Shown here: positions 236 through 56,778 of the stretch, piece by piece
Position numbering within the stretch: the stretch's first letter is position 1
Layout: each line of letters opens with the position of its first letter
From: Chytriomyces cf. hyalinus JEL632
Taxonomy: Eukaryota > Chytridiomycota > Chytridiomycetes > Chytridiales > Chytriomycetaceae
NCBI GenBank assembly: GCA_025435555.1
Contig: JAIWWG010000019.1
Span: 186,001 to 250,000, forward strand
DNA length: 64,000 bases
Direction of reading: 5' to 3'
Position numbers and translations under genes: made by a program
Notes under the pieces: model-generated
The model's database searches: none
Told to the model about the DNA's origin: nothing
Seen by the model: only the letters and a program-made list of their open reading frames with translations

Positions 236-1153
236 CCGGACACTCGGGCATAACACACGACCGCTGGACCGACACCGTAATGGGCATCTGTCTTGGAAAC
301 TATGTCGGAGGTCTTTCAGTCGGCTGGTGGAAAAAGAACCACAACGTTCACCACATAGTAACAAACCACCCAGAACACGACCCTGACATTCAACACATGC
401 CATTCTTGGCAGTAACAAGCCGGCTCATGCACAACCTATACTCTACTTACTACAAACGCGTGATGGAGTTTGACGCCGTTGCACGTGTCATGATTCCCAT
501 TCAGCACTACACATTTTATATCCTTCTCGCGTTTGGCAGATTCAACTTGTACGCAAACAGCTTTGCATACCTGTTTTCAAAGGACAGAGTTCCACATCGG
601 TGGTTGGAACTTGGAGGGTTGGTTGTGTTTTGGACGTGGTATCCAATGCTATTGTCAACGCTGAAGGCAAAGCCTAGTTTGATTGTATTGCACGTATTGG
701 TGAGTCACATGTTTACGGTGATTCTGCATGTGCAGATCACATTAAGCCATTTTGGGATGGATACGACGGTTGTGGAGGGTGAATCGTTTGCAGAGATGGC
801 GTTGCGGACGAGTATGGATGTGGAGTGTCCCAGGTACATGGATTGGTTCCATGGAGGGCTGCAGGTAAAAAAATATTTTGTTTTGTGTTTTTGGGTTTGG
901 AAGACTGATTCTTTTCCTTCATAAATAGTTCCAAGTTGTGCACCACATGTTTCCACGTGTACCACGCCATAATTTACGGGCTATTGTGCCGTTGGTGGAG
1001 GAGTTTGCAAAAGAGCACGGACTCACATATCATCGCTACAAGTTTATCAAAGGGAACTGGATTGTTTTACAGTGCCTTGCCAAAGTAGCGGCAGAGGTGC
1101 GTGAATCCATGCAGATTGCCGTGGACAAAATTAATGCAGAAAAGAATAAGTAA
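236..1153 (+). CDS. Front-end fatty acid desaturase, C-terminal part (delta-8 sphingolipid / delta-6 type)
   Basis: Membrane-bound di-iron desaturase of the cytochrome b5-fused front-end family, which puts a double bond between an existing one and the carboxyl end of an acyl chain or into a sphingoid base. Exons 236-864 and 929-1153 are joined by a 64-nt intron. The exon entering at 236 begins in phase 1 (G|CC), giving A-G-H-S-G-I-T-H, the end of the first histidine box. The second box is in WWKKNHNVHHIVTN and the third is QVVHH (Q-x-x-H-H), followed by FPRVPRHNL. Hydrophobic segments lie between boxes two and three. The wording resembles fungal delta-8 sphingolipid desaturases more than acyl delta-6 enzymes, but substrate is inferred. 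The cytochrome b5 domain and the first part of the enzyme lie left of the window or were lost at the repeat cluster. The protein ends with a Lys-rich tail at a TAA. Confidence 0.85.
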
Positions 1154-14488: not shown

Positions 14489-14806
14489 CCTTTTGTATAT
14501 TTCTTCCCTTCCCCCCTTTTTTTTTTAATATTGTTTTGGTTGTTGGTTCCTTTTTCAAAACTCTGTATTGACTGAATCTATTTATGCACATTTTGTTTTT
14601 GTTTTCCATTCCTGATTTAGTGTTGCGTCTAAATAATATTCAAACATTTTAATAGCCCAAAGACGCGTTTGGCGCCCGCGCCTGACGCCGTTAGAAGCCC
14701 CTTTAAGCGTTTGGCTGCTTGAATCTCTTGGCTGTTAATCTGGACACAACTTGGTGCCACATTTTCTGCCAAAGAAAAGTTGGGATTTCCAAAGAAAGCG
14801 ACAGGG
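14489..14806. other. Short intergenic region
   Basis: About 320 bp, T-rich on its left half (3' UTR of the CRAL-TRIO gene, with TTTTTTTTAATATTG), and GC-richer towards the channel start. A longer in-frame read-through begins at a TTG at 14780, but the first ATG is at 14807. No other feature seen. Confidence 0.5.
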
Positions 14807-17750
14807 ATGCCCGACACAACCGGCCCACTTCTGACACTGCTACAAGAGCTACAGGAAAGGGTTTTTGCCATGGAGTCCCAGCTCATGATCATGAAGCCCA
14901 TCACGCGTCAGGCGATGATGATGCTATCTCAGTTGTCGCCCAACGAATCAGATCAGAATATGAACGTGGCACCTCAAATGCAAGAAATTCTATCCAAATT
15001 CTCCAAATCTGCGGCCAGTTTAAAAGGCGGGTTACTTCAGAATGTTTTGGAGGACGCGACCACCGAAAGGGCCCACAGCAACGCCATCCACACACATACA
15101 GTGGACCTTCCTGATTCAAACCATCTCTTCTTAAAAACGCGGCCACAAGCAGGACGAAGGCTGTCGGCGACGCGATTTTCGGCACCTGTTGCGGCTGGGC
15201 TTGGGACTGTGCAACAGATGGAGGAGAAGGAAATTCCAGAAAGAGATGGAGAGCTTCAAACAAAATCCCCCCTTGATCAGGGCAAAAGCACGGCCGATGC
15301 CACACGCGCTTCGACTGGGTTTTGTTCCACCATGAAGAGATCTAAATCTGCGGGCCACACGGCAGGAGCCCGTGCTTTTTCTAGCACGACCGAAGTTCCA
15401 CCAGCAATGCCACCCTTACCAGCCCCTGAAATTTTACGAGCGCCGAGTTTAGTCGTAACCGAAGCAAAGGATCTGCGTCAAAGCAGCTCAGTGTCAATTG
15501 AAGTGCCCATGATTTTTGACGTAGAGCATCCGTCGGTTGTTACCGCGGTTCAACCGAGAAACAATGTTGTGAGCGAAAAAATCGAATGTACCGATGAAAA
15601 CGAGTCTCTCTCGAGGCCTGGCGTTTCTACACCGCTTGCCTTTTCCTCGCGCCGGACTTCGCTGTTCCGGGAAGCTTCAGCGACGTTGGAAAGACAAGCA
15701 AACAAACGAATCTCTGCATTCTACGAAAACGCGTTTTCAGCAAAATACAATCAGGGAGGGTCCCTGGCATCGCTGGAAATCTCGATTCCACCTGTTTCGG
15801 AAATAAATAGTGACAAGCTGGACGACGAGAAGGCAGACCAAGTGGTGGAACAGCCACCATCAACATCCATGTTTATTACCGGACTGAATCCGCTTTCATC
15901 AATTTCGGTGAATTTTGAGGTCTTTATGGCAGGTTTGATTTGCCCGTTTACTTTACCGCGTCAAAGCCGGGGCGCTGAATCTCCCAAAAGGGTTATATTT
16001 GTCAGTCTTGTATTTGATCCCATTAGAAGTCGGGTTGCAATTGAAGCTACATTGGGGCTATAGCCTTGTTCTCTCGACCATATTCATCTTTGACATTGCC
16101 GTTGAGTTTGCGACTTTCCGCATAAACCATCCAGCCATCTCTGTTCTTGACAAACCGTGCCTCCGAGATTGGCAGCTGTATTACTTAAAGACAGGATTCT
16201 GCTTAGATCTCATATCCGCGTTACCGTTTGAAGTCCTCCCCGTTCGAGAGCAGGAATTTCTTTGGGGACTACGCCTTCTGAGACTTTACAAGCTCCCTCG
16301 GATATTCTCCACTTCTCCAAAATTTGCGGCCATCCGAAAAACATTGGAGAGTTCGCTTGGAATAGGAAAAACGTTTTCTGGAATATTTTCGCTCCTTTTT
16401 TGCCTGGCCATCTTTCTCCACCTGGAAGCGTGCATTCTGTTCCTTGCCGGAAGGTTGAATGACTTTAGCAATGCCAGCATCGCCAATGTGCAATTTAAAG
16501 ACACTTTTGAAAGGTACATCTGGGCGCTGTTTACGGTGCGTATTTTTTTTTTTTTTGTCCGCCAACAGCCACTGAGGAAAACGAGATGCGCACTGATTTG
16601 GTTCCAGGCCACTGGAAACACGTTTCCTCTTTATTATAAGCCAAACACAATCATTGAACAAATGATTGTGATCGGTTTTCTGCTTGTGGGTGCCGGGCTG
16701 GTGAGCACTTCGAGACATTTTATGCTTGCACAAGTTTTGCTAAAAACATGAACAAAATGCAGTATGCCTCCATTGTTGGAATGATTTCCGCATTTTCGAT
16801 GGGCTTTGATGCATCCGGTCGGCTGTACAAGCAAAAAATGGATGAGCTGCGCGAGTACTTTCGATGGAAAGACATTAACGAAATCACGCAAAGAAAGATC
16901 TTCAAGTACTACGAGATCAAATACAGAGGCAAATTCTTTGAGGAGGTGAAAAAACAAAACCCCCTCGCGTTCGCCAACTGTCGCTGCGATTATTTTGACA
17001 TCGTTTTCCTGTTTGTTTTGAAGGAAATCCTTTTTAGCGATTTGAACGAGCCGCTTCGAAAAGAAATTGCCCTTCACAACTGTAAAAGCATTATTTCGAA
17101 AGTGAATTTCTTGAGACGAGATGTGGGAGATGGGCGCGATGACCTGTTTCTCGGAAGAATTGCCATGTCTTTGAAGACGTGCTACTTTGTGACGGGCGAT
17201 ATCATTATTTCGGAAGGAGGGGTGAGTACCACGAATCTTTCTCTATGCATGCAAATTGTATGCAGTCAGTTAAACTCTTTGCTACTGTTCAGGTTGACAG
17301 CGACATGGTTTGTACCTGTTTTGAATATATCAGTTGGTTCAAACCTAAACCAACCGTCAAAACAAAAAAGTATTTCATCATGAGCGGACATGTGAATGTT
17401 TTTGTCAGTGGAAAAAACGTGACTACTCTCTCGGAGGGATCCTTCTTTGGAGGTTAGTCACTTGAGCAACTTTCGTGTCATCTCCCGCTCACCTGACTCT
17501 GCGCTACCCCGGTACAACGCCCATGCCCCCCCCCCCCCCCCCCCCCCCGTAAACTCACCATGTAGAGGTAGCGCTGATGGGCAACCTATCTCGAACATCG
17601 ACCGTGCAGGCAGTATCTTCATGCATGCTGTACCGCCTTTCGAAGCGAAACTTTGCCGATATCCTCACAGAGTACCCGGACATGAAAGAAAAAGTGGAGA
17701 TTATATTTAGCAAGACTTTGGCGAAACTTAAAATTGCGGCTGGGTGTTGA
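14807..17750 (+). CDS. HCN/CNG-type cyclic-nucleotide-gated cation channel
   Basis: Eight exons: 14807-15932, 15991-16535, 16608-16700, 16763-16945, 17024-17221, 17293-17307, 17371-17452, 17566-17750; 808 aa. The N-terminal ~370 residues are a long disordered cytoplasmic region. S1-S6 follow. S4 (LRLLRLYKLPRI) has a basic residue every third position, so a voltage sensor is retained. The pore line is WALFTATGNTFPLYY: the filter lacks the T-x-G-Y-G of K+-selective channels and resembles the T-I-G-E-T type. The C-linker (YYEIKYRGKFFEEEILFSDL) is HCN/CNG-like. The cyclic-nucleotide domain has GHVNVFVSGKNVTTLSEGS and the phosphate cassette FGEVALMGNLSRTSTV with its Arg. The exon of only 15 nt (VDSDM) is needed for that domain. 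cAMP/cGMP-gated channels in zoospores serve light or chemical steering; this role is inferred. Confidence 0.9.
17526..17548. repeat. Homopolymer C23 tract inside channel intron 7
   Basis: An uninterrupted run of 23 C on the sense strand in the intron 17453-17565 of the channel gene. The C-run takes the place of a normal T-rich pyrimidine tract before the TGTAG acceptor at 17561-17565. Confidence 0.9.
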
Positions 17751-22800: not shown

Positions 22801-24607
22801 TAGCGTCATGAATGCGCCCATGTCCTTTTTCGAAACGAATCCGTTGGGAAGAATTATTTCCAGATTTTCAAAAGACTTTTCCGAAGGTGATCATGTTTTG
22901 CAGAAAATATATCCAAAAACTTCCTCCTGCTAACCTCCGAACTCGCCAGTGGACCGCCAGCTGCCAGTACTGATTCAGCAAGTGATGGAAAGCACACTAT
23001 CTCTGATTGGAACTGTAGTCTTGATTGCGTATGCAGTACCTCTTTGCTTGGTTCTTGTAGTGATTTTGTTCCCGCTGTATCTTCATTTCTTGAAGTTTTT
23101 TCGCGCGTAAGTGTTCTCTGAAAATGCCCATTTGCAACTAACCCAAAACCAAAAAGTTCCATTCGCGAACTGAAGCGACTCGAAAATCTAAGTCGATCTC
23201 CTCTATACGCTCACATCTCAGAGACTCTCTCCGGCCTCTCCACAATCCGCTCTTACGACCGAATGCATGATTTCTACACACTTCAAAATGCTTTCCTTGA
23301 TGCCGGAAACCAACCCATCTATCTAAAAAGCGTGGCTGAATGTTGGATGAGTAATCGGGCAGAGTCGTTTATTGCATTGCTTATTTTTGCTGTTGCGTTG
23401 GTCGGGCTTGTGACAAATGCGGACGCGCCGTTGCTTGGGTTGGGGCTTTCGTATGCGTTGGCGTTAATGGCGATTGTGAACGGCTTATTACCGCGCGTGG
23501 CAGATTTGGAGGCGAGAATGTGAGAGTTTTGTTGATTTTGGAAGTGGTATATGCTGCTGATTCCACCTTTCCAACTTTTTTTTAAAGGAACTCGATTGAG
23601 CGCATCTTTCACTACATCACAGAACTACCCAGCGAGAAAAAAGAGCACGACTCAAGTGTTTCAGAATCTTGGCCAACCAAAGGAATGATCGAATTCAATA
23701 GATTCAGTCTTCGATACCGTGACGATCTGGACCCTGTCTTGCATGATTTAAGTTTCCGAATTCCGGCTGGAGAAAAAGTCGGGGTCGTTGGTCGAACTGG
23801 GGCTGGGAAGTCAACGATCATCACGGCAGCGTTTCGGCTTGTAGAAGGGTGCGAAGGGAGCATCTCTATTGATGGTGTGGATGTTGGGAAGCTTTCATTG
23901 GATAATCTGAGGAGTCGCTTAGCCATCATTCCTCAAGCGCCAACATTGTTTGGTAAGTGGAATCTTAATCTCTTGGTTTGAAACTTAACTCGCGCAATTT
24001 TGGAATTCTGAAGAAGGAACGATTCGCTTCAATTTGGACCCGCTACATGAGTGTGACGATGAAGACATTTGGCACGTTTTGGGGCGCTGCGCGCTCAAAG
24101 AGTACGTGAGTATGCTGGATCAGAAACTTGATTCACCTGTTTTCGAAGGCGGAGCAAATCTCTCTGTGGGTCAACGACAATTGCTTTGCCTCGGCAGAGC
24201 CATGCTGCGAAAAAGCAAACTACTCTTTATTGATGAAGCGACAGCAAGTGTGGATGTGGAAACAGACTCTTTCATTCAGCAAGTAATCAGGGAGGAGTTT
24301 GAAGACGCCACGGTCGTGTGCATTGCGCATCGCTTGGGTACCTTGATCGACTACGACAAGATTATGGTATTGGATGCCGGAGAGTTAATCGAGGTGGGAT
24401 GGTTGAGAATCTGTTTTCAAAGTGCCGAATAACTCATCCCCTTCTTTCACCAAGTATGACGCACCGCATGTTTTACTCAGGGACCCTGGCTCGTCCTTCT
24501 CATCTCTCGTTGATGAAATGGGAGAATCGTCGGCCAGTATGCTTCGCAGTCTCGCGGAAACTGCGTTTTACGCGAGTTACAGCAAAAGGAAGGCCGTGCT
24601 AGACTGA
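19806..24607 (+). CDS. ABC transporter, ABCC/MRP subfamily (short form, no TMD0)
   Basis: Fourteen exons: 19806-20167, 20226-20659, 20727-21126, 21183-21555, 21624-21887, 21951-22174, 22237-22401, 22474-22661, 22731-22886, 22950-23106, 23157-23519, 23588-23952, 24014-24393, 24455-24607; 1,327 aa, the size of ABCC4-like short MRPs. The order is TMD1-NBD1-TMD2-NBD2 after a ~100-residue soluble lead. NBD1 has Walker [10 protein letters not shown], signature LSGGQAAR and Walker B ILLLDDP (Asp for catalytic Glu, the usual MRP asymmetry). TMD2 includes [24 protein letters not shown]2 has GRTGAGKST, variant signature [14 protein letters not shown] and IAHRLGTL. MRPs export organic anions, conjugates and cyclic nucleotides; substrate is unknown. 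The exon 8 donor (T|GTTCGT at 22662) and the exon 3 donor (GTTGAG) are the weakest calls. Only 39 bp separate its stop from the next ATG. Confidence 0.9.
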
Positions 24608-24629
24608 GCAATGCAGTTTGCTGTCAGGA

Positions 24630-24635
24630 AATAAA
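24630..24635 (+). terminator. Probable poly(A) signal AATAAA of the ABCC gene
   Basis: AATAAA lies 22 bp after the ABCC stop and 11 bp before the start codon of the next gene. Cleavage would normally fall inside the next coding sequence, so the two transcripts probably overlap. Confidence 0.4.
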
Positions 24636-24646
24636 CTTGAAAAATA

Positions 24647-27600
24647 ATGCAAGACGCCGTCTCTCAACTGACCTTGCGTTGCCAAAAACAGCGCCTGGCC
24701 ACACCGCACTTTGAGATTGAGTCAACACAGGGCGCAGCACATACCCCGCAGTTCAAGGTGTGTTGCTGTTGGTGCTCAACAATTTGCCGAACTTGACGAA
24801 CTCACGCGCTTGAACGCATTCTTCGCGGCCAGATGGCCGTGACTGTGAACGAGCGCAGATTCGTAGGGAGTTATTGGAGTCCGTCAAAGGCAATGGCAAA
24901 GGCAGAGGTGTGGTTATGCTTCCACTGGCATTTGAAAAGGGTCCGCGCTCATGTCATTTCGTGTGTTATCACTTGTCCATTCCACAGGTGGCAGCAGCGG
25001 CTTTGGTTGGCCTCGGATGGGCGCCTGCCGAATCTGGATCTGCCGCAAGAGAAGACCCTGTCCAACCTGTTCAAGCAAAACCCATTGAGCCATCACATCA
25101 ATCTGTTGAGCCGCCACCGCCAATCACCCAGCCAAAAAACTCAGAAGATGGAGCTCCTGCCCCACTTATCGCAGCGGATAACTGGGCGATTTCTCAGTTT
25201 TATGATTTGGCGCGGACGCAGAACGTGAACGTCACAGACATGTATCATCCCACAGCGGCAGGTATGTAGTGCAATTACCCACAACGCTTTGAACTGTATC
25301 TTTGTTGAGCTGATACTTTTCGGACAGGTTTCAAATGCTACTTCATGTGGGGGACGCGGCAATTGCCTATGAGCGATTCTCACGTCCGAAAAAAAGACGC
25401 GAAACTTCATGCTGCCCAACTTGGCCTCGCAGAAATTGCGTCTTCCATCACAAAATCACTTTCAACTGAAGTTATATCAAAGCCCATGGACCTATCCACA
25501 CCTCCTTCAGAAACGCAGCAGTCGTTTTCATCGTCGTCGTCGCTCCCTTCCTTCGAAAGTCCTTCACAAGTGCATTCTTCATCTTTAAACGCAAGACCGT
25601 TAATCCCCCTTCCAGCCCAACCACCTGTCGACCCAACAGTTATCCTTGCATCGCTTTATAAAATTCAATACCCCCTCGACCCATCTCCGCCAATCTACAC
25701 TGAAATGAGCACAGCTGCTGGGTTCCAATATGCCATTGCACTCAACGGCCGTGTTGTGGCTACAGGCGATGTTTTCGTCACCAAACACGCGGCAAAACGG
25801 CATGCTGCTCAATCCGGATTGCAAATCTTGATACAATGGTCGCAAGACGCAAAGAAGAGGAAGCGCACTGAAAGCGGGAGTCAAAACGGTGGTGCAACGG
25901 TTGCCTCGAATACGTTGCTGAGCTCCATATCTGCCGAATGCATTGATGCTGATGAAACGTTTGGCCGTTTGCCTGATTTGAGTCTTGGGGAAGGAGGTCC
26001 CGATCGATGGGATGTGTTGGCGGATTGTTTCTCAAAGTCACTGGGCGGAAGTGGTGATATGAGGAAATGCACACACAATATCATAGCCTCAGTTCGACTT
26101 GCGTTGCAGCAACATTCGGAGTTAAATATTGATCGCGTTGTAGTAAGCGGTGCTTTCGGACGGTAAGATATGCGATTTCTTCATTGTATCGTTCAAACTG
26201 ACACGCCATCGATTTCAGCGGAACGAATCTGATATTTGACACAATGGTTGAGTTGGTGTTGGTTCGAAACCGAAGCGATACTGTTCAACCGGAGGGCACT
26301 CTTTCAAGCGCTCTCTTGTGCGACAATGCATTTCATTCTCTCGTTGTTCAGGCAATTGAAAAAAGTACGATTTCAAATTGCGTTCGATTTCTGAAACCGT
26401 TTGCAAACGGCGGAAGCGTCCACTTGTGGTACAACGGAATTCAGTCTGTTCGATTACGTGTCGTCGAGGGTGTGAACTTTGCGCCAGCTGGGGACAAATG
26501 CGAAGATATCAAGGTTCCGAGATACCGCCAAATTATGCATCATGGAACGGCGTTACTCGAATTGCGCAATCAATTGATAAATTCAATGGACAATGTGGAT
26601 TTAGATCTATGTAATTGCATCCTAAAATTTACCTCGCGGTCTAGTAATCGTACTGATGTAATGACGCCCTTTTTCAACAGGGAATTCAACCCTATCAGAA
26701 TCAACCGCACTTTTTTTCCGCAACCATGCATTCAGCGCTCCTCTCGCTCGGTTACTGAAATATTGGGCGCTATCATTGTCCTTCAGTTCGAACGTTTCTC
26801 GCTTGGCATTGTCAAATGTGTTGGATTATGTTGCTGCTTATGCTTGGGATCAAATGGAACGCGCGCTTTCAGAGTTTGATCCAAAACGAGCCTCTTTAAG
26901 TCTGGCCTTGGAAACAGCTTTGCGCTTCATAGAAAATAATGACAAAATGCGTATTTTCTGGACCGGTAGATTGCATTTTTTTTATCGTCGAGAACCGCTT
27001 GTAATTTGCTGCAACAGAATTTTACACTCGCGACGAGATTCAGTCAAAGATATCTTCTACCGCATCATTCCCGCTGTTATTGGATCCTGTGAATCCCTTT
27101 CGAAATTTGTATGATTCAATTCCAAAAAGCGCTTGGAATGCAATGGCCACTTACGCGAAATCTTCGAGGGACGGCATTTTCGAGCAGGTGTTCTGGTTCT
27201 TCGTACTCATTTCTGTTTCCAATCTGACCTGAATGACAAATAAGGTTTTACCTCGTGGCTCAGATTTTGTCAGAACTGCGTTTAATCCTCAACTGAGAAC
27301 CGCTTTTGATGTTTTGTACCTGAACACATCAATTTGTAAGTTTTTTATGCGGTGGTTAGAAATGAAGCAGTTATCTTTGGCGTTAATCTATGGTCCGCAG
27401 CAATCACAACGAGCAAAGATCCGTTCAATTTCACGATTCCCGATTTCCAACTCAAACCAGTGACGGGTTGCTCTCCCTCTTCCTCGACGTCCACGGCACA
27501 GGAAACCTTGGAAGACGGGGAAATCTCAGAAAAACGATCAAATTTAGCAAGCATGCAGACTTTGAAGCTGTCAAGCGAAGAAACCGTTGAATCGGTTGCG

Positions 27601-27888
27601 CGTTTGCTGCAAGCAAATTTAGCGATGCAAATTTTTGCATTCCAGTTCAAAAGTACAAACGGTCGTCCGGAGGATTTTGATTCAGGTGTAGCAGTTTCTG
27701 GTGGAGCTGTGGGTCACGCAGAAGTTTCAATGATGGTGGAGGCTGCTATCGCAACATGGAAGGGGAGCCTTCGAGTGGCGTGCGATGCTGGCGTAGGCGT
27801 CAGGCCTGAAGGAGCGCTTGTTGGATGTTTGTTGTTGCCCGTGTTTGCAAAATTTGCAGTTAGCATTGAGATAGTTGTGAAAGTGTGA
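24647..27888 (+). CDS. Three-dsRBD protein with OAS-like (probably inactive) nucleotidyltransferase domain
   Basis: Nine exons: 24647-24757, 24833-24907, 24988-25261, 25328-26162, 26219-26610, 26681-26965, 27018-27187, 27245-27335, 27401-27888; 906 aa. Three dsRNA-binding domains lie at about residues 5-72, 126-192 and 256-322. Each ends in the basic-helix pattern of that fold (PSKAMAKAEVAAAAL, VRKKDAKLHAAQLGL, TKHAAKRHAAQSGL). A KKRKR nuclear-type signal follows at ~329. The nucleotidyltransferase core starts with VVSGAFGRGTNL (OAS: GSxGxGTxL), but the D-x-D that follows in active enzymes reads M-V-E. The C-terminal half follows the OAS1 C-terminal domain in order: LARLLKYWALSL, LDYVAAYAWDQ, ALRFIENNDKMRIFWTEFY and PLLLDPVNPFRNL..W. 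It is thus an OAS/DZF-like pseudo-nucleotidyltransferase by inference. Exons 8-9 are the least certain: two in-frame acceptors exist, 27371 and 27401, and the 65-nt intron was preferred. Confidence 0.82.
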
Positions 27889-30580: not shown

Positions 30581-33500
30581 TTATTCGCCTGACGTGATGA
30601 ATTTCACAAACCAGACACGACTTTCAGAGTTTGAAATTAACCCTTTTGGCTCAGTATATCTCAAGCCTCCTTTCAGAGATACTTTGAAGTAAGTCTCTAC
30701 GTGGTATGGGGACGGAAACAAGGCAGTGGTTTGCTCGACACCGTCCTTGCTCGCTTCCTCGACCTTGGAGTGGTTTAAAAGCTTGGTAATACGATGCTGA
30801 CTTTTCTGGAACTCCTGCACCGGATTCAAAAGCTTGAATTGTATTGGCTTTGTACCGCCAAGTTCCACAGTGCCTTTACAGCTGTCCGGCGAAAAAGCAA
30901 ACGGAGCGTCATACGGTACGGCATCCGATTCAACAGCAGTGTCATGAGTTGCTCCTGAAATACCGAAGTTTCCTTCCCATTTCTCGATGATATATTCGGT
31001 TGAAGGGTTCCTTTTTGTATCCGGTTTCACAAAATTTGCCGGTTTCAAGGCCACTACCTGAAGTTCCCTCATTTCGACGTACCATTTTCCTGTCTCGTCA
31101 TCCATCTTCCATTGGCACGTTACCGTCACGTACTTGCGGTTTACTCTGCTCGTCAGCTTGACCATTTCGGCCAGCACCTCTTCCGATTGCTGAAGAAGAG
31201 CATTATTTGCACCGTCTTTGGACTCCTTCACCGCAGTTTTCTTTTTTGAATCCACCGCAAGCTTTGAATTTGATCCTTTCGACTCGGATCCAGCCGCAAT
31301 AGACAAGGTTGATTTGTTTAGGATGCTTCCCTCATTATCACCATCACCGTCGTCATCCTTTGAAAGCTGCTCGGCTTGTTTGGGAAACTCACTGTTGTAT
31401 AATTTTTTGGCATATTCGAATTCTTGCGTTGGATTCCATGTCTGTTGCTCGCTTGCTCCAGCGTAGGGTCTATCATACCCGAGTAGTGCTGAAGATGAAT
31501 CCCAGCATCGGCCATGTACTTGAAAATGGATTGGAGGTGAGTTACTGCAAATGATGATGCTCACTGTTTCGTGGTAAGTGTCACACTCATGGTCCGGCTT
31601 GAACTTGATCTGGTTCCGCCAAGAACAGCATTATTATGTGACTAATCACTGCTGAAAATAGTAAAATGTTGTACCGTGAACTCTTGCGAAGAACTTGCCG
31701 GAATGGATACATGCCAAGGAGAAACTGAAAACGGATTGGACAAGTTCAAGTTACCAGAGCCGGCACTGTGACACTTGTATGTTTTTGAGTATGGCGGACT
31801 GGAGATTTGGATCTTGCAAGGAAGTGCCGAATATCCATCGTTAAACACTTTGAAAGTCCGCGATCCAACGTCTCCGACGGCAATGTCTCCGAGAAAGAAT
31901 TCCTTGTCTTCAGGCTCGACACGCATGATTGGGATAATCCCCTCCCCATTGAGTGTAACTTGAGCGCATCCGATCGGACTTAAAATTTGAAGCCTTGTTG
32001 AAAACGTGAGCTCGGATTGAGGCTTGAACGACACCGTCACTTTGCAACGTTCGTACGGGACAAGCTTTACATTCATGTCTGAAGCCACGCGAAACGGGCT
32101 GCTGTCTCCCAGTATTTGGTACTGCCCGAGATCCAATGCACTGGGGCCAATATTGCAAATGACAAATTCTTGATAGCACTCTTGATCCACTGGGACAGTA
32201 CCAAACGTCAAAATAGCACTGAGTGGCTCCAAAATGACTAAGTCAGGACGAACGATCGGGGCAATCACTTTGAGGTAGAGTCGCTCCAAAGATACTTTGT
32301 GCTCAGGAATTTGGATGTTGGGAAACGTTGGATTTGATTTTCCCGAAGGAGAACTCACTGCCCTCAAAGGCGGCATTTTACGGATTTTGCAGGGAACTAT
32401 CAGCACAAGACACGTATCATCCAGTTTTTCAAGCATTGTGGCGATCTCGGGTTTGATGGCGATGGAGTCTTGAAGTGGAATGTTCTCCAAAGGTGAGGCA
32501 TAGCAACTGAACACTATTTCCACGTCTTTTGTGCCTGATTCATCCTGTTCTAATGGAGGGATTTCTTCTTTCTTGATGGGAACTTTGCCACCTTTCTCCG
32601 AAGTCACCACAGCTTCTTCGACTGACGGCGAAGGTAAGAAAGGGTCGTCCGCCTCAATTCGCTCAGGGGATTGCGCGTTCTTAAGAAGTTTATATGCAAG
32701 TAGTTTTGCTAAACTTGGAGGTTCCAGAGAGATGGCGATTTCATTTTGTTCTCCGGGCCCAATCACGCCAGCTTTTGGGTGAATGGACAGAGGAGGGGCA
32801 TCGTTGATTTGAAAAGCTGGAAATGCCGGGCCCTCAGCGAATAGCGTCTCCACGCTAGAAGTTACGAATATTCTTGGATTTTGCGCGGTTGGCTCGCCGA
32901 CCGAAAACAATTCGTCTGGGTCAAAGTTCTTGACGCAAATCTCATCCAAAGAACCAGCAATTTTTGAGCCATGCCGAAAACTCTTCAAGTAGGATGGATT
33001 CACGCGCTCTGCGGCTTGTTCGGATTCACGGCTCATTTGCTGTGATTCCATCCAGACAGATTCTTTGGACTGGTTTTTACTCGCCCAAGCACGAGATAGC
33101 ACCGTCTTTTGATAAATCCCAACAATCTTTGGCGCGCCAAATTCATACTCCAAGTCGTCGTCGCTTTTCCGCCGCCTTGTCACTGACTGTCTGATGTGCT
33201 TGTCTATGCCGGTTTCCGGATCCCAAATCTTTTTGACAATGCTTCCGGTATTTTTGAAGTTGGACGCAGATAAGTCGGCTTTGAGTTTTTTCTCATACAT
33301 GAGCCTCACTTTGGCTGTTTTTTTACTTCCCAGGGAAAGACTTTTGAACCGCACTTCCGAAAAGTCAAAGCGCGTCAACGATTTTTTGCCACTGCCCAGA
33401 CATTTGAGTTCAAAGTTTCGATTCCAGAGAGTGTGGCAGCATATCCGTGCCTTCATGTTTCCAATTTCTGTTGGCTCAAACCGGACTTTTCGGAGCTTGC

Positions 33501-36500
33501 TTGACTCTGGACCGACAATCACGGCGCCGTCAATATCTTCGCAGTCTAAGAACACAACTCGAATGGCTGGATCGGTACAGTTGAAGTTGACTTTTTGAGG
33601 TAGTCGCGAAACATTTGTGATTTTCAGGGGAATCTCCTTCACTTCCAAAAAGGAGCAGTCGCCGAACGTCAGTTCGTTGCTCTTTTTGCCAGGAACGGAA
33701 AATGTCACGTCAGTCGTAGTTATTTTCCCTGTGATTGTTAGAGGAATTGGTGTCTCAACCCCTTGGTTCAAGTATCGAATGAATGCCTGCACTTGGTATG
33801 GAAGGTCTCCATTTTTCAATAGCAAGTATCCCGATCGAGAGGGAGTTGCTTTGAACCATACTTCGGTGGATTCATTTGGCTGAGCGACGACCATACGTGG
33901 TGCAATTTCAAGAAGCCCCATATTTCCAACGTCCACTTCCAAGTTGTCAGAGCGAGCGTTCGCAGAAGCAGATTTGGAAGACTTTTTAACTTTCCGCACT
34001 GAGAACTGAGGCACATCTTCGGTCGTCATGACAGATGGCGAACGTGACGAAGCGTGACGGCCGTTTGGTGAAAACAAATTAACTCCCAAGAGAGGAGCTC
34101 CCACCCTTGCGGATGATCGTGTTTTTTGATTCAGGTTGGCAAAGGAGTTGTGAATGCTGCCGGAATCCGGAAACAGACTGTCGTCGGAAAAAAATGACAA
34201 TCCTTGCCGAGGTTTATCTTCATCTGAATCAATGCCATCCGTGCAGATCATTGATCCAAAATCCTGCGTGTCAGATATGATAGCACGCTGTTTTCCGGCC
34301 CCTTTGTGTGATGCAAAATTTTTGATCCGGTTTGACATGCCGTCTATCTCAACCCAGAACTTGATGGCTTGATTGGAATGGTTGGAAATAAGAATACTTT
34401 CTCGATACGACGAATCTGCCGCGCAAGTTCCGAAATCTATTTCCGCTTGGTTGATTCTCAACGGTGCCGGCAGGATAACGCCGCTGCAAGACAGCTTGAT
34501 TGGCGGAACAACGTCCGAAGCAAACGATATGAGACAAAGAACTTCAGAAAGAACTTCATGATCGAATAGACTTGATCTTATGGGCTCAAATGTCAGTTTG
34601 AACGAGACTGTCGAGTGCCCATCGATAATCAGGTTTGAGGCACCTTTGCTCTCCAAATAAAAGGGTTCGTCGCTTTCTTCATCACGGATAATCGATACAG
34701 TAGCAATTGTTGAAATTGCGCCGTAGTTTGTGATATCGACCAACCTGATGCAATGATGGTTTAAGCGGGAGGAGATGTCCAAATTGTGCGAGAAATAACG
34801 TCGTACCGGGTTACAATGCCTCCTTGAACGCATTTTCCGAAATCAATATCCACCGGCAAGTTTTCAGATTCGTTGTCAAAAGCTGATGGTGATGCCGAGC
34901 ACAGTCCGTCTCGCCTCTGAGTAACGTTGGCTCCTCTGATGCAGGAAATTCGAGGCCGGCACTTTTTTGTTGAACAGCCAAGCTTGACTGAGAATCTACC
35001 GCCGTATTCAGCTTCAAATAGCACTTCTCCGTTGAACACATCTTGATCAAACCCGGTCGGCGGCTTAAACACAAAAGTGACTTCGGCAACCATCCCTGCG
35101 CTAAGTCGCCCTGATGGAGGGGATTTAACTTCGAATAATGTCGCAAGATCGACTGCAAGTGGTGAGATCTTGAAAGCGTTGACGCGGCAAGACGTGTTTG
35201 TAATTTTGATGGTTTTTGAGTACGTGACATCCGGCTCATAATCTGCGAACATGACAGCAGCTGGTTCCGGCATAAATGGAGAAGACAAAAGAAGCTGCGG
35301 CTTTCTTTCGTCACCACTGATAATTTTGTGATTCGGTTGTGGCGCTTTTTTACGCCACATGGGATCGCTTTCGGAGTTTTGATTGGGCACTGATTCGATT
35401 GGAGGCAGTTTAAAGTCGCGTTTTTCAGTTCTATGCGCGTAAGGTCGAGGCGCTAAATGCTCAAGTGTTTCGCAGAGCGTTTCTTTCGACTTTTGAACTC
35501 GATGCTCTGCACGCTCGAGGTCGCTTGCTGCCAAGAGTCTTTTGAGAATAAACATCTTTCGTCCTTCCTCAATATCAGCGTTGACCTTTCGTTGCTTGTC
35601 GTCTTCTTTTTGGCGATGTCTCAGCATGTGTTGAACTTCACGGACTCCTGGCATCTGAGAAAGGTCAGTTTGACTTTCCTCTTCTTCTTTGGCTGTCAGT
35701 TCGTCTTTTTTTAGAGCTTCATGTTCGGCGATGGCTTTTCGAATTTTAGTCACTCTGGCTCTTAATGAGCTCAAATTGAGCTCTCGCAAATCATCTGCCT
35801 TTTATTGTGCCAGGTTGATGAGCAATGAGTTTACAAGGATTCTCAGTTGATTTCATTACCTGCTCCGATTTGCTATGCTTTCCTTTTTGCGCACTGTTTG
35901 TTGGTTGAGCTGCAGCTTCCTTCCTCCCCGCTTTCTTTTGCTGGAGCGATGCTTCGAGTTTGACTCGAGTTATTACCATGGCTTCCAACTGATGAACTAT
36001 GTCGGATTCCAAAATTTCGGCCAGGAGAAATTTGTAATCAGAGGTCTTGGACTGTGACGCTTGCAAGTCATGTTCGATTGAAATTATCGCGGCATTGAGT
36101 GAATCGATTGAGCTGAGGCATTCTTTTGCGAAGGCTGAGAATTCTTCATAAGATTTGTAGAGATTTTGAAGTTGAGGAGTGCCTGTCAAGAGTGCAGCTG
36201 TCGAAATTTCAAAATCCAACGGGCTGCCTTCGTCAAAGAATAGCTTTGACTTTGGCCACTCGATTTCAGCCTCAACCGTTTCCGAAACCTCCTGGAGATC
36301 AGAAAGAGAGCATATCTGAGGCCCGATTGACATGCATTGTTGGATGAAATGGTTCGCTTTCTCCTGAATCATGTTTATCACAGTCACCAAAACGCTTGTG
36401 AGGAAAAGAGTTGGAAACTGCTCAAATCACTTCCAATTTACCTGACAAATTTCCCTGCTTGACGTTAAATTCGAAAGTTCAAGCTCGTTTTTTCGGGAAC

Positions 36501-53882: not shown

Positions 53883-56109
53883 TCAGCTTGGCATGACGAT
53901 ACAAGGAAATTCGTACGGCGCACCTTGCTCAGCTCCCAACGGAACAGACGAAAATGCGACGTCGTCCACACTTGACAACACGGGAACGCCCCCGACAAGG
54001 ACGCCTTCACTATCAGCCGCATCTATGCTTTCATTGAATTTCATCTTATTCGACATCGCAGTTAACGGCCGCCTCTTCAAGGTCTCTTGATCATCTTCGT
54101 CCAATGTTTCAACCGAATCTGCCAATCCTCGCCCACCGAATCCAGCCCTCCGTTTTAACGTTCCGTCCGGATCAATAGGCTCTATTTCCAACCCATTTTG
54201 ATCACATTTGACAGTTTTTGGCAATCCCCCCAGCAGTTCAGACTCATTTAAAGGGGCAGTAGCCCCATCGCCCACTGATTGCGCCTTTTCATCACCCACA
54301 TCGCCGCCAGCACTCATCAAGATCGCTTTCCGCACTTCAGGCTCTAGATAGGCCGGAACGTCCGCGACTGACACAGTTGCACTCCCAGCTTCTTCTACGG
54401 AAAGGACATTATGCGGCTGACTGAGTTCATATAGGCATTCAACGTCCCGTTTGATGCATTGTCCACACGATGGGAGACCACGGTCACATTTCTTTTTCCA
54501 TTGGCGGCATCCAACGCATGGCGCTGGGTCACGGATCGGAATTTGGAGAGATTGTAAAGCCATCGGGAGTGTTGTATTGTTGCGTGATAGATTTTGCTGT
54601 TCCACGGCGGCAGGCGATCCTGTGGGTACTGACGGCACCAGAGCGTTTTGATCAAAGAATATCGAGTCCTGATGCATCTGACGAATGGGGAATGGGTTTG
54701 CAACATCTGTAATCCCATCGGCAGGAGCCAATTTGTCCACTGAGAAAGGTAATGGTCGCGGCTGAAAGCTGCCTTGATTGTTCATGCTCAAATTGTATAA
54801 ATGTGAGTTGATGGATTGCAGTTGCGCAGGATTATCCGATGCACCGTCAATGTCCATTCGAGGCGTTGTAACAATGTTGCTTGGTAGAAAGATATTCGAA
54901 TCGGATGATGTCATGGCTGAAGCAGCCATACCTTGAAAACCAGGGGATACACTCGTACCAGTTAAATGGAGTGGGGACATGATTCGCGACATGGTCTGCT
55001 CTTGGTCAAATATCCTCTGCATGGCTTGCATTTCCAGCCGCTGATGCTCAATCAGATTACGCATTTCCAACCCATTCTCCTGCATGTTTTTAATGTCCGT
55101 GCCAGACGGAATTTGGCCCATGTTGTAGACAGGAAGGCCGAGGACCACCTCTTGCATAGGATCCCCGTGTTGGAATAGGCCAGGATCGAATGGAGGAAGC
55201 GGAATGGAATGCAAGGATTTGATGGATATTATGGGCAGCTGATTGTGATATCCTTGAGAAGATATTTGTGAAACATCTGGTGAGGGGGAAGCGTGCGCGT
55301 GAATGTTCTCGGGATGGAATGGAAATGAGATTGACGTCGTCTGAAAGTCAAAACATACAGTTGAAGTAAGCTGCCAAAACGAGAGACTGAAGCAGCTAGA
55401 AATCAGAAGTACTTACAGGTGAAGGCGAAGGCAACAGAGGTGTATTCACGTTTGAAACATTAACAAATGGATTTGTAACATTGACGGGTGAGTCAGTTGC
55501 CGAGGCGGATAAATTTGAGTGTGTTAATGGATGTGATAGCGACGGTGATGAGGCCATGTTCAGCATGACGGAAAAGTCCAGCAACGACAAGTCAAAAGGT
55601 GGGTTTGCGGTGGAGGTGGAAATTGAGGAAACGGCGCTGACCAGCTGATTCAGCTGCACGAGTTCCTCGCGCTGCATGTCCTGATGAAGAGGCGTTCGAA
55701 CCTTGTTCATGTGGGTTGAAGAATGCGATGACTGTGAGGATCTAGAGGACGAGGACGACTCTGAAGACACAGAAGACACGGAAGATACAGAAGAGTCGCG
55801 CCTGGAGGAATGAACGACAGCACGGCGACCCCGAGGCTGAGAATGAGACGGTGAATGGGGTGGAACATTGGATTGATGAGATACGCTCTGAGGTTGTGCA
55901 CCAGACTCCATGGCTGCAGTTCTGCATTCAATTCCCATACGAATACACCGGGCGCAAGGTTGGATGATTGCAGATATGGCAGGAGAAGCTGACGAGGTCG
56001 AGGAGACTCGCTCGCATTTTTTCCGTCGTTGTTTGCAGGCGACACAGGGAATAGTACGGCTACGCCGCGTCTTGACTGTGGCTTCTGTTCCGTCTTTGTG
56101 CGGCGACAT
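53883..56109 (-). CDS. Transcription regulator with two Zn2Cys6 binuclear clusters
   Basis: Two exons on the minus strand, 56109-55417 and 55340-53883, joined at a GTAAGT..TTTCAG intron of 76 nt, phase 0; 716 aa. The first cluster, near residue 22, is C-x2-C-x6-C-x(19)-C-x2-C-x6-C (CVACKQRRKKC ... CARCIRMGIEC) with an unusually long central loop. The second, near the middle of exon 2, is CVGCRQWKKKCDRGLPSC followed by GQCIKRDVEC and has the classical short loop. A Ser-run (SSVSSVSSESSSSSRSSQSS) and Asn/Pro/Ser-rich regions separate them. The fungal-specific middle homology region was not recognised. The reading frame crosses the junction without a stop (SPSP-TTSISFPFHP), which supports a single gene; two genes remain possible. 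Gal4-type factors normally carry one cluster. Confidence 0.78.
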
Positions 56110-56778
56110 AATTGCTGAGTGATTGTTGGGTTGAACTGGAGGCAGATTGATTTGTTCCCAAGAAAACAGAGTGCTTCATGGTTTCCTGTACATCATTGCC
56201 AGTCATGACCAACTACTTAATCCAGTCAATTGTGTTATACACTCCACCACTGATCCCTAAGGATGGTATCAGGTATTATAAGTGGCTGCTGCCTGCCAGG
56301 GGAATATACTGAGCAAGATCATCATTATTACGCGTTGGCGCCTGGACCAGCACTTCTTGCTGAGGCTTTGGCGCAATGCACCGTAGGGATCCCGAAACCA
56401 CCGAAACTGGCGACACAGCTGTCCTTCCTTCACGTTGTTCAAGAAACCTCAAATCCTAAAACGCCATTCTCGCGCAATTGCAGCACCATCTCTGGTCGTC
56501 CAGCACTCAGATATTCCAAATTTTCGTGAAAGGCAGTAATTCAAGTCGGTGCAAATTTCTGTTTGCATGCTCTTCTGACGATTGATGTCGCAGTGCCTCC
56601 CAAAGAACAGATCAATCGTCGCCTTTTGGTTGTCCATGCTTCCATTGCAATCAGTTGATTAGCTTGGCCAGAAGAATTGGAATGCTGTGCAGAAAAGGCA
56701 GAATGAATACTGTCGGAGTTGTATTGTCAGATGGTCATCTGCCACCGGCAAAAGAAAATCCCAAAAACGAATATCTGT
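56110..56778. other. Intergenic, promoter of zinc-cluster gene and 3' flank of coiled-coil gene
   Basis: About 670 bp with no supported gene; a plus-strand 88-codon frame at 56263 lacks any family feature. Confidence 0.45.

Follow-up and report, generated by a model that had tools for sequence, protein, structure and literature searches.

Introduction

Proteins of the 2′-5′-oligoadenylate synthetase (OAS) type are familiar chiefly as antiviral enzymes of animals. In this work, we describe a gene from a chytrid fungus, lying in a 64,000-nucleotide stretch (hereinafter the window) of the Chytriomyces cf. hyalinus JEL632 assembly (contig JAIWWG010000019.1, positions 186,001 to 250,000), whose predicted product joins double-stranded RNA (dsRNA)-binding domains (dsRBDs) to an OAS-like nucleotidyltransferase (NTase) that is very probably catalytically dead. 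Three published studies, each cited here for a part of its text, provide the closest points of comparison. First, the OAS superfamily has been reported from 8 of 12 eukaryotic supergroups, where it is nested within the clade C CD-NTases of bacteria; its absence from numerous well-assembled genomes of plants, fungi and amoebozoans is ascribed to repeated loss (PMC10732462, whose main text mentions neither DZF nor dsRNA). Second, the DZF domains are NTase-fold pseudoenzymes, a heterodimer of which binds little RNA alone and lifts dsRNA affinity more than 10-fold (PMC11952958). Third, human OASL retains an OAS unit without 2′-5′-oligoadenylate (2-5A) activity, with the inactivity ascribed to a changed oligomerization motif and not to the catalytic aspartates (PMC4351405).

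Results and Discussion

Domain architecture of the predicted protein

The hand-spliced gene model yields a protein of 906 residues and a stop codon, without internal stops, in which dsRBD1 is followed by two weaker dsRBD-like repeats, a basic KKRKR patch, an NTase lobe, an OAS1_C lobe and a tail (Table 1). A Pfam scan of the whole protein returned three families at E ≤ 10, namely dsrm (E = 8.2e-13, 49.2 bits against a cut-off of 23), OAS1_C (PF10421; E = 6.3e-11, 42.6 bits against a curated cut-off of 19.9) and DND1_DSRM (E = 1.7e-7). A preliminary description of the locus, made from the letters alone, had anticipated the first two, both of which exceed their Pfam cut-offs, and the OAS1-like motifs that it quoted are present in the order claimed. 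Residues 379-764 further retrieved OAS1 chains, comprising four sequences, in a PDB sequence search (E = 5.3e-5 to 2.7e-4); the match of the same segment to a bacterial CD-NTase was not significant (E = 0.55). Thus, by its C lobe, the predicted protein is a member of the OAS superfamily, OAS-like rather than DZF-like. Library models of the cyclases of bacterial CBASS (cyclic oligonucleotide-based antiphage signaling systems) gave matches lying mostly in this lobe: NCBIfam NF041116 at 31.4 bits and E = 1e-7 (the model cut-off of 200 is far above this) and the PADLOC Cyclase model at E = 6.3e-6.

For the N-terminal lobe, the whole-protein Pfam scan gave no NTase family, and the lobe alone had no match in PDB or PADLOC. 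We therefore built our own CD-NTase profile of 8 proteins, drawn from 12 stretches of bacterial and archaeal plasmids. At the NTase G-motif, this profile aligns with residues 340-562 and scores 9.1 bits, as against 7.2 for the best of 2000 shuffles, and a profile comparison of residues 379-745 with hhalign gave P = 6.5e-4 (probability 27%) in local and P = 4.6e-4 (probability 14%) in global mode. Hence, a CD-NTase-type lobe is detected, weakly, ahead of OAS1_C. Its GAFGRGT signature had been labeled a P-loop; we take it to be the NTase G-motif, which is distinct from the Walker P-loop.

At the N-terminus, dsRBD1 is the sole one of the three dsRBDs to pass the dsrm cut-off by itself (35.3 bits), and the only one with the G-x-A-H loop typical of RNA-binding dsRBDs. 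The third falls below the cut-off when scanned alone (E = 0.0061, 17.6 bits), and the second has no Pfam dsrm match; neither found a dsRBD chain in PDB, where each returned just weak matches to other kinds of protein. These two repeats are nevertheless alike: their local alignment scores 63, a value reached by none of 2000 shuffles (best 47). Alignments of dsRBD1 with either of them, and of each of the three with an RNase III dsRBD, did not outscore shuffles. The series of three dsRBDs originally proposed thus holds firmly for the first, at a sub-threshold level for the third and by repeat likeness only for the second, and remains a fair description of the predicted architecture. Searched together against PDB, the three-dsRBD part matched ILF3/NF90 best (E = 8.5e-5), followed by TARBP2, ADAR and Loquacious. 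At the other end, the whole-protein Pfam scan placed no family after residue 745, and the last 135 residues alone had no Pfam match at E ≤ 10 and no NCBIfam match at E ≤ 1.

Table 1. Features of the gene and its predicted protein (positions are those of the window)
Feature	Residues	Exons	Position	Strand	Basis
Whole gene		nine exons	24647..27888	+	spliced model built by hand
Exons		1-9	24647-24757, 24833-24907, 24988-25261, 25328-26162, 26219-26610, 26681-26965, 27018-27187, 27245-27335, 27401-27888	+	hand-built model
dsRBD1	4-68	1-3	24656..25005	+	Pfam dsrm E 1.8e-8, DND1_DSRM E 9.7e-8, isolated piece
dsRBD2-like repeat, degenerate	126-195	3-4	25177..25452	+	likeness to dsRBD3
dsRBD3, degenerate	255-327	4	25630..25848	+	sub-threshold dsrm, likeness to dsRBD2
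Basic patch KKRKR	329-333		25852..25866	+	sequence
N-terminal NTase lobe with GAFGRGT	379-562	4-5	26002..26610	+	CD-NTase profile
Met441-Val442-Glu443 in place of D-x-D of OAS and CD-NTases	441-443		26244..26252	+	alignments
Asn518 at expected third catalytic Asp	518		26475..26477	+	hhalign, multiple alignments
OAS1_C lobe	583-706	6-7	26740..27163	+	Pfam PF10421
C-terminal tail	746-906		27403..27888	+	no family found

Apparent loss of the catalytic aspartates and search for an RNase L

We take D75, D77 and D148 to be the catalytic aspartates of human OAS1. In a phmmer alignment to OAS1, the segment of which is not significant alone, D75 and D77 lie opposite Met441 and Glu443. Both hhalign and all five multiple alignments place the catalytic aspartates of the CD-NTases opposite Met441, Glu443 and Asn518. 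In pairwise alignments with the CD-NTases, the first two positions fall on Met441/Glu443 in 7 of 8 and on Asp439/Met441 in the remaining one. The third falls on Asn518 in 3 of 8 (two of these with near-identical proteins), on Gly497 in two, on His540 and Arg512 in one each, and in a gap in one. Arg512, to which an OAS1 motif and its spacing had pointed as the third catalytic position, was replaced by Asn518 on the strength of the profile and multiple alignments and is kept in a single pairwise alignment (L034). The second and third aspartates are thus absent under every alignment made and the first under most, and in most alignments the catalytic triad of a 2′-5′-oligoadenylate synthetase is replaced by M441, E443 and N518. 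These replacements, seen against both OAS1 and the CD-NTases, led us to reject an active synthetase and argue against 2-5A signaling: as judged from these residues, the OAS-like NTase is very probably catalytically dead and the protein very probably not a 2′-5′-oligoadenylate synthetase.

The genome (37.8 Mb in 242 contigs) was searched exon by exon, and the counts of matches given here are accordingly lower bounds. It has one match to the KEN domain, confirmed by Pfam. By eye, the surrounding 6.5 kb holds luminal-type repeats, a hydrophobic stretch, a kinase and then KEN, an order that points to a gene of the IRE1 type, not RNase L. As this is the sole KEN match, no RNase L was found in the genome, and the nuclease arm of the OAS-RNase L pathway was not detected.

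A putative dsRNA-binding protein on a probably dead OAS-type fold

On balance, we favor the view that the product is a host protein that binds dsRNA and is based on a dead OAS-type NTase, resembling NF90 but differing from it in the reversed order of the domains and in having a lobe of the OAS type. This view draws on the domains and their residence in a single gene, the N-lobe homology with CD-NTases, the loss of the triad and the lack of a detected RNase L. Further, it is based on the single OAS1_C match in the genome (E ≤ 0.001), on the absence of a paralogue there (all 6 matches of the gene are pieces of itself) and on the absence of a Mab-21/cGLR match in a search run without a positive control. 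The protein would then probably act by binding RNA rather than by synthesizing a signal molecule, and by analogy its mode of action is probably like that of NF90 or OASL. The division of labor that we envisage follows that of NF90, the nearest mechanism, for which a DZF pseudoenzyme is reported to raise dsRNA affinity more than 10-fold (PMC11952958, in the part cited).

Under this proposal, dsRBD1 would supply the main grip on dsRNA, and the dead OAS fold would serve as an auxiliary RNA-contacting surface or dimer platform that makes no 2-5A, as modeled on the DZF of NF90. The KKRKR patch, which we read as a putative nuclear localization signal from the consensus for such signals, might direct the protein to the nucleus. 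The output would be the sequestering or handling of structured RNA, such as repeat-derived, antisense or viral dsRNA, as opposed to second-messenger signaling, and perhaps alongside the large RNA interference (RNAi) machinery of the genome.

The comparison with described systems brings out both likenesses and differences. With OAS1 and its superfamily the protein shares a significant OAS1_C lobe (by Pfam and PDB sequence search) and a collinear NTase G-motif; unlike OAS1, it has replaced aspartates, N-terminal dsRBDs, a basic patch and an extra C-terminal tail, and its genome yielded no RNase L. NF90/NF110 (ILF3), which pairs with NF45, combines dsRBDs with a dead NTase fold in one protein, as does the fungal protein, and NF90 is the best PDB match of its dsRBD part. 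However, the dsRBDs precede the NTase fold in the fungal protein, whereas those of NF90 come after it; moreover, the fungal protein has OAS1_C in place of DZF. The CBASS cyclases are matched weakly, in the C lobe via the library models and in the N lobe via the 8-protein profile, but they retain the D-x-D and the third Asp; in some of the examined records they adjoin other CBASS-type genes. OASL of vertebrates, for its part, carries two ubiquitin-like repeats, and to our knowledge no dsRBD; its likeness to the fungal protein lies in an OAS unit lacking 2-5A activity (PMC4351405, in the part cited).

Several observations weigh against this proposal. The NTase lobe is weakly recognized, solely by a profile that we assembled ourselves and at the hhalign probabilities given above. 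In the active site, the hmmsearch alignment is shifted by two residues, so that Asp439 and Met441, in this order, take the first two catalytic positions; together with the one pairwise case, this makes two alignments in which Asp439 occupies the first; the assignment of the third aspartate likewise depends on the alignment used. On the RNA-binding side, dsRBD2 and dsRBD3 may not bind RNA. The protein as a whole has no strongly basic character, with 83 K+R and 90 D+E, and both its NTase lobe and its OAS1_C lobe have a charge close to neutral. Finally, no NF45-like or second NTase-fold partner was found in the genome, in a paralogue search and in DZF searches, the latter without a positive control.

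Alternative explanations

The strongest rival holds that the protein is an RNAi cofactor delivering dsRNA to Dicer or Argonaute as R2D2, Loquacious and TRBP do, its dead NTase lobe serving as a protein-binding platform. The genome offers such a role a substantial setting, with 16 Piwi-domain (Argonaute) matches on 7 contigs (C232, C21, C38, C1, C46, C162 and C90) and 13 RNA-dependent RNA polymerase matches on 6 (C187, C171, C90, C204, C14 and C166). The dsRBD part does match TARBP2 and Loquacious chains, and at E ≤ 0.01 the dsrm search of the genome found only the present gene and one for a small RNase III. We nonetheless regard this role as possible but rather unlikely: ILF3 heads the PDB matches of the dsRBD part, no link from the gene to the RNAi genes was found (no search was made for Dicer), and the Dicer partners known to us lack an NTase fold. 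As an observation in its own right, the RNA-silencing set is large for a fungal genome of 37.8 Mb; the small RNase III consists of an RNase III domain and one dsRBD (1030-1746 of stretch L007, + strand, contig C11).

Alternatively, the gene could be a pre-animal member of the DZF lineage (NF45/NF90/ZFR) that has kept its OAS resemblance, a link that the preliminary description had also raised. The ingredients are the same, i.e., dsRBDs and a dead NTase fold, and the ILF3 match and the basic patch would fit. Yet the protein has no match to DZF_N or DZF_C at E ≤ 10, and none was found in the genome (the latter searches lacking a positive control), leading us to reject DZF membership. In addition, the NTase/OAS part drew 5 PDB matches at E ≤ 10, none of them to an NF45 or NF90 DZF chain, and the domain order is reversed. 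Such an origin consequently seems improbable to us.

We consider it still less probable that the protein is an active 2′-5′-oligoadenylate synthetase or other CD-NTase with an unusual metal site, to which the dsRBDs add dsRNA sensing. The OAS1_C lobe is well conserved, and acidic residues (Asp439 and Glu443) lie near the expected site, the former being the one that two alignments put at the first catalytic position. Against this, the three aspartates are replaced in all five multiple alignments, the second and third positions are never Asp in any alignment, and no RNase L was found.

As for a recent horizontal acquisition from animals or bacteria, also suggested earlier, we consider it very unlikely. 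In its favor, OAS is best known from animals. Many fungal genomes lack such immune homologues (PMC10732462, in the part cited). However, the codon usage of the gene looks native, and on this ground we rejected recent transfer: the correlation of its relative synonymous codon usage with that of seven neighboring frames pooled is 0.71, as against 0.47-0.67 for five of those frames in the same test, and its GC content at third codon positions is 0.453, as against 0.38-0.52 in the seven. The eight short introns also speak against transfer. Nor was a relative confirmed in viral contigs (11 pattern matches), prokaryotic genomes (10 pattern matches) or plasmids (two pieces at the chance-level E of 7 and 9), in single-protein searches that reach close relatives only. 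Moreover, the presence of OAS homologues in 8 of 12 eukaryotic supergroups favors descent with repeated losses (PMC10732462, in the part cited); that a zoosporic fungus has a gene of the OAS type is therefore plausible by descent and less surprising than first supposed.

Lastly, although the splice sites were set by hand in a model made without transcripts and the active site is very probably dead, an artefact in the form of two wrongly joined genes or a decaying pseudogene is hardly credible, since the uninterrupted exon 4 runs from dsRBD2 through dsRBD3 into the NTase lobe, which led us to reject the separate-genes reading that the preliminary description had offered as its own undoing, and all nine exons are open with introns of the GT-AG type.

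Wider implications

We searched the open-licence PMC literature by titles and abstract openings; no fungal dsRBD-OAS protein is described among the matches listed. If our proposal is correct, the OAS fold would have been used as an RNA-binding scaffold outside animals, in parallel to NF90 and OASL, and the gene would offer a concrete starting point for studying dsRNA handling in early-branching fungi and the origin of the DZF pseudoenzymes. More speculatively, and with little confidence, fungi or the opisthokont ancestor may already have had a nuclear dsRNA-binding pseudo-OAS; in that case, either the NF90-like plan would have arisen twice, or the animal DZF family would derive from a dsRBD-OAS protein of this kind, of which the present gene would be a surviving intermediate.

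Gene structure and genomic context

The gene model begins and stops at the coordinates of the earlier description. Its eight introns, all GT-AG, are 52-80 bp long, and the splice sites were set from the sequence, not from transcripts. Exon 4 is a single open stretch covering most of dsRBD2, the whole of dsRBD3, KKRKR and the NTase lobe from its beginning to GAFG. The least certain point of the predicted model is the exon 5/6 junction (26610|26681), where a frame change is required because the OAS1_C frame is otherwise not reached; its exact position is a choice.

Upstream, a frame read as the end of an ABC-transporter gene stops at 24607, leaving 39 bp (24608-24646) before the start codon; hence, the promoter would have to be very short or lie inside the upstream gene. 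Downstream, the ATG read as the start of a histone-deacetylase gene is 79 bp past the stop. The ABC_tran and Hist_deacetyl domains were confirmed by Pfam on other exons of these neighbors. Scans of the window with Rfam (gathering threshold) and for tRNAs were empty. Farther upstream, positions 14723-17383 (+) hold a multi-exon ion channel gene with Ion_trans on 15939-16748; the open frame that follows yielded no Pfam family at E ≤ 0.001.

The reading of the locus as a fungal gene that joins dsRBDs to an OAS-type domain is supported: the genome has 13 Fungal_trans matches, and the window itself codes for a Zn2Cys6 protein and a CFAP74-type protein. Two adjacent frames at 53883-56175 (-) carry Zn2Cys6, of which the first exceeds the Pfam cut-off and the second falls short of it, and appear to represent one or two fungal-type transcription factor genes. 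A search of the genome for tektin was negative. The window also codes, at 31642-34842 (-), for a CFAP74-type axonemal protein with Ig-CFAP74, HYDIN-like and ASH domains, which indicates a flagellated zoospore stage; the source fungus thus probably has swimming spores.

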